NCBI GenBank assembly: GCA_947383695.1
Contig: OX376642.1
Span: 62,001 to 126,000, forward strand
Direction of reading: 5' to 3'
DNA from: Actinomycetes bacterium
Lineage (GTDB): Bacteria > Actinomycetota > Actinomycetes > Nanopelagicales > Nanopelagicaceae
DNA length: 64,000 bases
The first letter of the stretch is position 1; the number at the start of each line of letters is the position of its first letter. Shown piece after piece: positions 39,619-44,429 of the stretch. The notes beneath the pieces were generated by a model, which did not search any database, was not told where the DNA came from, and saw nothing but the letters and a program-made list of their open reading frames with translations. Position numbers and translations under genes: made by a program.

Positions 39619-39671
39619 GTGCGAATAACTCGCAACTCGCTTAACCGCTGCAACCTCTTTACTCTTAACCC

Positions 39672-39743
39672 ATGTTGTTAGCAGCCACTAAGCGCCGTGT
39701 AATTGATTACGGCCGTATGACTGCTTCCTTGTGTATCGCTTAA
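39672..39743 (+). CDS. Putative 23-residue leader peptide ahead of the DUF4395 gene
   Basis: A short frame, MLLAATKRRVIDYGRMTASL followed by CIA and TAA. It resembles the small actinobacterial leader-peptide family with a basic RR-x-x-D-x-x-R core and a cysteine near the end, found before sulfur and cysteine metabolism genes. TACTCT ends six bases before the ATG, so translation would start at the transcript's first base. A perfect hairpin begins at its stop codon (39741-39765). Stalling at the cysteine codon could change RNA folding and so expression of the DUF4395 gene. The reading is inferred from pattern and position. Confidence 0.6.
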   Translation: MLLAATKRRVIDYGRMTASLCIA

Positions 39744-39776
39744 TTGTTTCTTCATCCAACAATTAACGCCATTTTT
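39741..39776 (+). promoter_or_regulatory. Attenuator-like hairpin after the leader peptide
   Basis: TAATTGTT (39741-39748) pairs perfectly with AACAATTA (39758-39765) around a nine-base loop. Five T follow at about 39772-39776. The stem starts with the stop codon of the leader peptide, so a ribosome finishing or stalling there would block it. The stem is AT-rich and modest in strength. Confidence 0.45.
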
Positions 39777-39805
39777 AACTTACAAACAACACAAAGGAAT
39801 TTAAA

Positions 39806-40249
39806 ATGACACAGGTATCAGATCTTAAAAAGGTAACAACGGTATTAGATGCACGCGGTCCACGTTTTGGTGCTGCGATCACAACAGTTGTATTTGCAGC
39901 TGCGCTCGCAACACATAACGCATGGTTCATCGTTGCTCAAGCTATAGTTTTTGCAATTGGTGCATTTAAGGGACCGCAGTTCACTCCATATGCATACATT
40001 TACAAGTTTGCAGTAAAGCCATTTTTAAAGGGTGAGGTTCCAACAGAAGATGTTCGCCCACCGCAGTTTGCACAGAGCGTTGGTTTGTTGTTTGCACTCG
40101 TTGCTATCACAGGAGCGCTCTTTGGTATTGAAGCACTTGTCGTTGGCGCAGTCGCGATGGCATTAGGCGCAGCTTTCTTGAACGCAGCCTTTAATTTCTG
40201 CCTTGGCTGCGAGATTTACCTGCTCCTACTTCGCGCACGCGCAAAGTAA
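39806..40249 (+). CDS. DUF4395 family membrane protein
   Basis: A 147-residue protein with about four hydrophobic segments and the family's C-terminal CLGC pair (NFCLGCEIY near residue 130). FKGPQFTPY and GEVPTEDVRPPQFAQ are conserved loop sequences. The family commonly lies next to thioredoxin and thiosulfate sulfurtransferase genes in actinobacteria and is thought to have a role in sulfur or thiol handling, but its reaction is not known to me. AAAGGAA precedes the ATG. A leader peptide and hairpin lie upstream, and the fur gene begins 17 bp after the stop. Confidence 0.85.
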   Translation: MTQVSDLKKVTTVLDARGPRFGAAITTVVFAAALATHNAWFIVAQAIVFAIGAFKGPQFTPYAYIYKFAVKPFLKGEVPTEDVRPPQFAQSVGLLFALVAITGALFGIEALVVGAVAMALGAAFLNAAFNFCLGCEIYLLLLRARAK

Positions 40250-40266: not shown

Positions 40267-40677
40267 ATGGCAACCAAGCATGAACTACATGAAAAGGGTC
40301 TGCGCTTAACACCGCAGCGCGAATTAGTACTGTCTGCTGTGCGTGCCTTGGGGCATGCAACACCTGAAGAGGTTGCAGAAAAGGTTCGCCAAACACATCC
40401 TGGAATCAATCTTTCAACTGTCTATCGCAACCTGGAAACCCTTGAAAATGTTGGCTTAGTTCAACACACCCACTTGGGTCATGGTGGTGCGACCTATCAC
40501 GCAGCTGAAGAGTTAACCCACCTGCACTTAGTGTGTGGAACATGTGGATCTGTCGGAGATGCGCCAATCGAGGTTGCCGCTAACTTTGTAAACACATTGG
40601 CCGATGATTACGGCTTTAAAACAGATGTCACGCACTTTGCGATCTATGGCACCTGTGCTGCATGCGTTAAGCCCTAG
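40267..40677 (+). CDS. Fur-family metal-dependent repressor
   Basis: A 136-residue Fur-type regulator. The winged helix includes LRLTPQRELVLSAVR and LSTVYRNLETLENVGLV. The dimerisation domain has the metal ligands HLGHGGATYH, HLHLVCGTCG and CAAC, the two CxxC pairs that hold structural zinc. By its position beside the sulfur and mycothiol genes it corresponds to the conserved Fur-like gene at this site in other actinobacteria. Whether it senses iron, zinc, manganese or peroxide is not decidable. TAGGCT ends six bases before the ATG. Confidence 0.92.
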   Translation: MATKHELHEKGLRLTPQRELVLSAVRALGHATPEEVAEKVRQTHPGINLSTVYRNLETLENVGLVQHTHLGHGGATYHAAEELTHLHLVCGTCGSVGDAPIEVAANFVNTLADDYGFKTDVTHFAIYGTCAACVKP

Positions 40678-43181: not shown

Positions 43182-44429
43182 ATGAATGGCCGCATTGCAA
43201 CTGTAATGGTGCATACCTCGCCCCTGGATCAACCAGGTATTGGCGATGCTGGCGGCATGAACATTTATGTTTTGGAATCTGCCCAACGCATGGCTGCGAT
43301 GGGTGTTTCGGTGGATATCTTCACACGTCGCACTGATGCAGATGCACCAGAGATTGTTGAAATTTCTCCGGGTGTTCGAGTTCGACATATTGATTGCGGA
43401 CATGGAACGCTGACCAAGGAACAACTACCGGCACATATTGCAGGTTTATCACGTGAGTTTTTGCGAATCTTAAAGAGTGAAAATTACGATGTGATTCACT
43501 CGCATTACTGGTTATCCGGCAAGGTTGCGATGCAGGCAGCTAAAGAGCTTTCAATACCGTTAGTACACACAATGCACACCATGGCGCGGGTTAAGAATTT
43601 GAATTTAGCTGAAGGTGAAAGCCCAGAGCCAATGATTCGTGTGCAGGGAGAAACTCAGGTTGTAGCAGCGGCTAATGCTTTGATCGCAAACACTGATGCC
43701 GAAGGTGCAAGCCTGGTTTCTTTATACGATGCCTGCCCCGACATCGTCCATGTTGTTAGCCCAGGTGTAGATCTATACACATTCACACCTGGTGAAAGCC
43801 GCAGCGCAGCTCGCGAGTTTGTTGGTCTGCCACATGACGCCTTAGTTGTTTCCTTTGTTGGTCGCATTCAGCCACATAAAGGCCCCGAAGTTTTAATCCG
43901 TGCAACAAGTGAACTTGTTAAGCACTCACCGTTACTTCGCCACAAGTTAGTAGTCAACGTTATGGGTGGCGCTTCCGGTGCAAACACCGACGAGGTTGAT
44001 CGTCTGAAAGAGCTATCAACCTGGCTTGGTATCGATGATGTTGTTCGCTTCGAGCCACCTGTTGCTCGTAAAGATTTAGCGCAGTGGTATCGCGCAGCTG
44101 ATTTAGTTGTTGTTCCAAGTTACAGCGAAAGCTTTGGTTTAGTTGCACTTGAAGCCCAAGCATGCGGAACACCTGTTGTTGCAACAGCGGTGGGCGGTCT
44201 TCGTACCGCAGTTGCAGATGGTATTTCTGGAGTTTTAGTTGATGGACATGATCCAAAGGCGTGGTCATCGGTTATTGCGCGTTTGCTGCAGGAGCCTCAG
44301 CGCCGTGTACTGCTTTCCATGGGTGCGATTGAACATGCTTCTCACTTTGGTTGGGATGCAACCGCCCGCGGAACACTGGATATTTACGATCTTGTCATCG
44401 GTGAAGCACGCAAATCATTGGAAGCGTAA
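43182..44429 (+). CDS. mshA: D-inositol-3-phosphate glycosyltransferase (mycothiol synthesis)
   Basis: A 415-residue GT-B family 4 glycosyltransferase that joins GlcNAc to inositol-3-phosphate, the first step of mycothiol synthesis. The N-terminus HTSPLDQPGIGDAGGMNIYV is the diagnostic MshA loop. Also seen are HSHYWLSGKVA, the acceptor-site MHTMARVKN, SFVGRIQPHKGPEVLI and the nucleotide-binding ESFGLVALEAQACGTPVVA. TACCCT lies nine bases before the ATG, with AAAGG between. The YbjN-like gene begins at the next base after its stop. Confidence 0.95.
   Translation: MNGRIATVMVHTSPLDQPGIGDAGGMNIYVLESAQRMAAMGVSVDIFTRRTDADAPEIVEISPGVRVRHIDCGHGTLTKEQLPAHIAGLSREFLRILKSENYDVIHSHYWLSGKVAMQAAKELSIPLVHTMHTMARVKNLNLAEGESPEPMIRVQGETQVVAAANALIANTDAEGASLVSLYDACPDIVHVVSPGVDLYTFTPGESRSAAREFVGLPHDALVVSFVGRIQPHKGPEVLIRATSELVKHSPLLRHKLVVNVMGGASGANTDEVDRLKELSTWLGIDDVVRFEPPVARKDLAQWYRAADLVVVPSYSESFGLVALEAQACGTPVVATAVGGLRTAVADGISGVLVDGHDPKAWSSVIARLLQEPQRRVLLSMGAIEHASHFGWDATARGTLDIYDLVIGEARKSLEA

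Follow-up and report, generated by a model that had tools for sequence, protein, structure and literature searches.

The 64-kb window, by which we mean the whole stretch of DNA that was analysed, comes from a bacterium whose closest named relatives are the acI freshwater actinobacteria (Candidatus Planktophila / Nanopelagicales), and it contains a 23-codon gene that probably gauges cysteine on behalf of the sulfur-related gene downstream. In the reading that we favor, and that we consider likely, this leaderless regulatory open reading frame (ORF) acts in cis as a sensor of charged tRNA-Cys, and it controls the translation of a DUF4395 gene. Ribosome pausing at the Cys codon, the direction of the response, and an output that is translational rather than transcriptional are parts of this reading that we infer. 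Two controls appear to be combined at the locus, namely the single-Cys leader and a second site that would act at the DNA level. Cysteine control by leader peptides, described in mycobacteria and streptomycetes, would also operate in the most abundant bacteria of fresh water, which have no sulfate reduction and rely on sulfur in reduced form (PMC5301498), and DUF4395, whose function is unassigned, gains a firm sulfur context. The mycobacterial Ms5788A switch, of which the window leader is, judged by its sequence, a distant single-Cys relative, was already known; what is new is a palindrome common to three operon types, with nur in the DUF4395 operon, and the natural deletions of the leader.

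The leader reading frame and its neighborhood

The ORF (39672–39743, forward strand) has 23 codons followed by TAA and encodes MLLAATKRRVIDYGRMTASLCIA, exactly the coordinates and peptide proposed in a first-pass annotation, which had also called it leaderless and too short for ordinary gene callers; both points are supported. A -10-like box, TACTCT (39660–39665, forward strand), is separated from the ATG by 6 nt, as expected of a leaderless transcript. Because a TA-N3-T box lies at the equivalent position in essentially all relatives, a transcript start on the first base of the leader ATG is well supported.

Among small ORFs on both strands of the window, the leader alone carries the pattern [KR]R..D..R...C, and a peptide profile search of its own 1.43-Mb genome returned a single significant copy (E 2.4e-11). 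Across the order Candidatus Nanopelagicales, the same type of search found the peptide in 133 of 201 genomes, and among relatives of the same genus and family 69 of 97 regions upstream of DUF4395 had it, typically as xxFTKRRVIDFGRLAGSLCRM. Lake MAGs whose records bear the titles Bifidobacterium breve or Streptomyces griseus (L199, L207, L212, L217, L240, L247 and L261) resemble Nanopelagicales in their leader loci, and these record names seem to be wrong. The residues R, R, D, R and C were invariant in all 48 representatives compared, while each of the Arg codons of the motif appeared as three or four synonyms; synonymous positions varied, and dN/dS for the motif was approximately 0.11. Both the peptide and the single Cys codon, which the window leader shares with most relatives, are therefore conserved, a point that the annotation had left to a comparison with relatives. 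By these comparative measures the leader ORF is a real coding sequence. A chance ORF lying above a conserved promoter and untranslated region (UTR) is scarcely credible: the frame is short, the best family match of the window peptide alone reaches merely E 0.011, and the promoter palindrome described below is kept even where the ORF is absent, but the low dN/dS, the five invariant residues and the existence of paralogues with differing flanks all speak against coincidence.

Downstream lie the gene taken to be controlled, which encodes a DUF4395 membrane protein (39806–40249, forward strand; PF14340, E 3.6e-39), a Fur-family gene that is Nur-like by sequence (40267–40677, forward strand), and a YgfZ/GcvT-like gene. 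Upstream are a thioredoxin gene (PF00085; 39190–39618) and, on the opposite strand, a GlnR-type regulator gene. The DUF4395 gene, its thioredoxin neighbor and a mycothiol gene in the same block had all been named beforehand, and profile searches confirmed them, the last as mshA (43182–44429; TIGR03449, 6.4e-161). The Nur-like gene immediately follows DUF4395 in 34 of 58 loci and stands behind a sulfurtransferase gene in approximately 20 more; the order DUF4395, sulfurtransferase, nur is seen in about 20 of the relatives compared with the window, whose own species has evidently lost the sulfurtransferase at this operon.

A helix between the Cys codon and the Shine-Dalgarno region

The first-pass annotation had described an 8-bp hairpin at the stop codon followed by five T, and had proposed cysteine-responsive attenuation. 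A hairpin is indeed present (39740–39766, forward strand; 9 bp, -4.0 kcal/mol when folded alone), with arms TTAATTGTT and AACAATTAA that consist of A and T only, except for one G-C pair. The TTTTT run (39772–39776, forward strand) begins 6 nt past the stem instead of immediately after it, and is not conserved: UUUU follows the stop-codon hairpin in just four of 47 loci, which makes a terminator unlikely. An intrinsic terminator or classical transcription attenuator was rejected on these grounds together with the weakness of the hairpin. Transcriptional attenuation in the broader sense, in which the hairpin or Rho would end transcription before DUF4395 unless a ribosome stalls at the Cys codon, is in our estimate rather unlikely. 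It can point to the T-run of the window and to the Rho-dependent attenuation put forward for terminator-less mycobacterial cys leaders (PMC1262725), but the nearly all-A-U stem, the scarcity of U-runs in relatives, and a conserved structure that reaches the Shine-Dalgarno (SD) region weigh against it. In predicted folds, the stop-codon hairpin caps a longer helix that covaries, and is not a conserved terminator. The idea of a cysteine sensor is itself well supported by comparison, through the invariant Cys, the homology to Ms5788A and the sulfur operons; it is the terminator-like role of the hairpin that did not hold.

When leader mRNAs were folded, an extended, interrupted hairpin reached from the Leu-Cys codons, where its 5' arm starts, to a 3' arm that stops immediately short of the SD sequence of DUF4395 or inside it. 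In the window, a segment of the Ser-Leu-Cys codons, UUCCUUGUGU (39725–39734, forward strand), which includes the Cys codon UGU (39732–39734), is complementary to, and predicted to pair with, the SD region ACACAAAGGAA (39789–39799, forward strand). The arms co-vary between clades, as in GUCGAAUG/CAUUCGAC (L036), CUGCUGAU/AUCAGCAG (L082) and GUUGGAUAAAUAG/CUAUUUAUCUAAC (L098). RNAalifold on MAFFT alignments gave modest covariation within single clades, with two-sided changes in one of 14 and two of nine pairs, and the all-clade alignment misaligned the helix arms; we therefore turned to chimeras in which ORF ends and UTRs were exchanged between species. Native pairs summed to -944.9 kcal/mol against a swapped mean of -741.6 (sd 20.5), and none of 10,000 permutations was as stable as the native set, a test that carries no correction for phylogeny and does not remove shared ancestry. 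The gain in pairing of native over chimeric sequences starts 3–4 nt before the Cys codon and peaks at +8 to +11; further upstream it was absent. Two genera (g10 and g13; L089, L091–L093 and L099) lack the Cys-anchored helix. The loci L089, L091, L092, L093 and L099 of these genera have longer UTRs and a different, more G+C-rich hairpin resembling GCCCGCGTCAGCGGC.

Across relatives, the 12 nt preceding the SD sequence pair more than in chimeras (0 of 10,000 permutations), and masking a ribosome on the Cys codon raises their unpaired fraction from 0.42 to 0.68. For the window sequence, the same masking raises the unpaired fraction of the SD from 0.26 to 0.77. The SD core across relatives is hidden no more than in chimeras (z 1.1), and its pairing with the ORF is no stronger than in synonymous shuffles (p 0.50). 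These two results do not support the idea that leader codons generally conceal the SD core, and our claim is accordingly limited to the stretch immediately before the SD.

A covarying helix that runs from the Cys codon to the SD region, and that a cysteine-starved ribosome would melt, points to control of DUF4395 that is probably translational. When cysteine is plentiful, the ribosome would pass the single Cys codon and leave the leader, after which the Leu-Cys-x-x-stop segment could base-pair with the 5' UTR as far as the SD region; with this helix formed, and the stop-codon hairpin at its tip, translation of DUF4395 would be low. When cysteine is scarce, a ribosome paused at the Cys codon would occupy the 5' arm of the helix, leaving the SD region free, so that DUF4395 could be made.

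The known working part of such a leader is the Cys codon, yet five residues are invariant and four of them lie 6 to 13 residues upstream of it. If one Cys codon can be enough, and given that RR..D..R is kept, the nascent chain may help the ribosome to pause. A stronger form of this idea is unlikely: KRRxxDxxR would interact with the tunnel of the ribosome, and a small molecule, either cysteine or another sulfur compound, would be the signal rather than the charging of tRNA-Cys alone. The two modes of sensing may also be combined. The tunnel reading would account for the invariance of residues distant from the Cys codon despite free synonymous change, and for their retention in Streptomyces- and Mycobacterium-like homologues. 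However, an internal hairpin, P1 (39692–39713, forward strand), built from the Arg-Arg and Gly-Arg codons in the predicted folds of many relatives, may explain part of the conservation of those same Arg codons, and the Cys runs of mycobacterial relatives fit codon sensing.

Paralogous leaders, the upstream palindrome and natural leader loss

A second leader of the same type occurs in other genomes of the order and is absent, as a significant copy, from the window's own genome. It precedes either an exported rhodanese with a Sulf_transp protein of the YeeE/YedE type (L176–L180, L183, L184, L186, L187 and L190–L195) or cysK-cysE (L181, L182, L185 and L188); these operon families were confirmed by profiles for L176 and L181, and were assigned at the remaining loci by sequence similarity on sight. 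At L176, L177, L180, L184, L186, L187 and L193, the leader of the rhodanese operon has an SD-like sequence in front of it instead of a -10 box, which makes a leaderless start improbable for these copies. The acI bacteria are described as lacking assimilatory sulfate reduction (PMC5301498), and this, together with paralogues at sulfur operons, constitutes the best non-experimental evidence for cysteine as the signal that the leader would sense.

Upstream of the leader promoter, with its center at -45 from the ATG, is the palindrome TGCGA-N5-TCGCA (39620–39634), a candidate Nur-box-like operator. Of 68 leader loci, 64 have the form TGCRA-N5-TYGCA ahead of the promoter, 62 of these at one fixed distance, and so do 23 of 27 DUF4395 loci that have no leader; its rate in shuffled sequence was 0.36%. 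Among the paralogous leaders, 15 of 18 have the palindrome at 9 or 10 of its 10 positions, and it is seen, for example, at L176, L177, L180, L185, L188, L190 and L193. We did not find the strict palindrome in Streptomyces- and Mycobacterium-like leader loci. Being common to the DUF4395, cysK-cysE and sulfurtransferase/transporter operons, it may be the operator of a sulfur regulon, with the form of a Nur box. One further match in the window's own genome (G000:C1:276713, L107) lies approximately 130 nt upstream of a rhodopsin-like gene, and may be due to chance.

Compared with solved structures, the Fur-family protein encoded behind DUF4395 matched 3EYY best (E 4.4e-45; next best 2.3e-16), which we take to be Streptomyces coelicolor Nur. 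The Nur-like protein may bind the palindrome, which would add a separate layer of transcriptional control to the leader. It is conceivable, although we regard it as doubtful, that Nanopelagicales possess a two-tier module for cysteine acquisition, with a metal-sensing palindrome of the Nur type and a single-Cys leader in which KRRxxDxxR acts as a nascent-chain brake. If so, one Cys codon would gate the DUF4395, cysK-cysE and sulfurtransferase/transporter operons. The paralogues at cysK-cysE and sulfurtransferase operons, the palindrome, nur and the loss of the leader had all been overlooked in the first-pass annotation, of which the leader-peptide part stands and the terminator part falls.

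The leader is missing from over a quarter of DUF4395 loci. In many, mostly from the window's genus (e.g. L004, L016, L017, L019, L025, L028 and L061), the leader and its UTR have been deleted together, and the ATG of DUF4395 has taken the position of the leader start codon, with the same palindrome and promoter in front of it, indicating that the leader is a removable module. After such a deletion, DUF4395 itself is, by its position, leaderless at the same promoter. This loss as a unit with the UTR bears on the possibility that the ORF encodes a small protein with a function of its own in trans, which we consider very improbable: strong purifying selection on the peptide would be expected of such a protein, but the cis position before sulfur operons and the covarying helix to the SD region of the next gene, like the joint loss, argue for a cis-acting leader. 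Because the promoter is unchanged, these natural deletions supply ready comparisons of loci with and without the leader.

Relation to known leader peptides and operators

The Streptomyces Nur box, tTGCaa-N5-ttGCAA (PMC3919588), resembles the upstream palindrome in its half-sites and spacing, and a Nur-like protein is encoded in the same operon here. In contrast to the Streptomyces box, the palindrome stands on sulfur operons, and no strict match was found at the Ni-SOD gene that the window's own genome encodes.

The window peptide matched NF042933 (leader_Ms5788A; Canestrari et al. 2020, 10.1111/mmi.14498) at 15.4 bits (E 0.011), below the curated cut-off of 45 bits. The leaders of 18 of 20 relatives also matched this family, with a best E of 2.6e-6 and scores such as 24.9 bits that likewise fall under the cut-off. 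NF042934 (cis_reg_atten putative leader peptides), whose members share with Nanopelagicales leaders a short peptide, an Arg-rich motif and a Cys, was matched weakly by nine of the 20 relatives and gave no match to the window peptide. Strong members of the NF042933 type elsewhere in the phylum include VSARLELMLTKRRAVDLCRVAGCCCCCCSC, followed by DUF4395 and then rhodanese in genomes of 5–6 Mb that are presumably Mycobacterium, and MKRQADLTKRRAVDLCRVAAMLCRPF, ahead of rhodanese in genomes of 6–10 Mb that are presumably Streptomyces. The locus L120 has leader, DUF4395 and sulfurtransferase in the same order. These family matches and the shared gene order indicate that the window leader is, on comparative evidence, a divergent single-Cys homologue of the mycobacterial Ms5788A family at the same gene and operon.

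The two agree in several respects. The KRR-x-x-D-x-x-R...C layout that had been read as that of a sulfur-type leader is present, matches the TKRRxxDxxR....C motif of the Ms5788A family, and is homologous to actinobacterial Cys leader peptides. In both cases a short leaderless ORF with T-K-R-R-x-x-D-x-x-R and then Cys is the first ORF before DUF4395, which in Mycobacterium-like genomes belongs to an operon with a sulfurtransferase, and attenuation through ribosome pausing at cysteine is probable. The window leader differs in having one Cys codon where the family has a run of them, in the loss of the sulfurtransferase from its operon, and in its covarying helix from Cys codon to SD and its upstream palindrome. 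For the mycobacterial polycysteine leaders, Canestrari et al. in 2020 reportedly proposed a model of RBS sequestration. Two reports on these leaders describe a ribosome that waits at Cys and thereby governs a downstream helix (PMC9031893, PMC9094748). Leaders of cys operons in Mycobacterium and Propionibacterium (PMC1262725) resemble that of the window in having Cys close to the stop codon and no obvious terminator; they carry runs of Cys and no conserved terminator hairpins, whereas the leader described here has a single Cys codon and a covarying helix.
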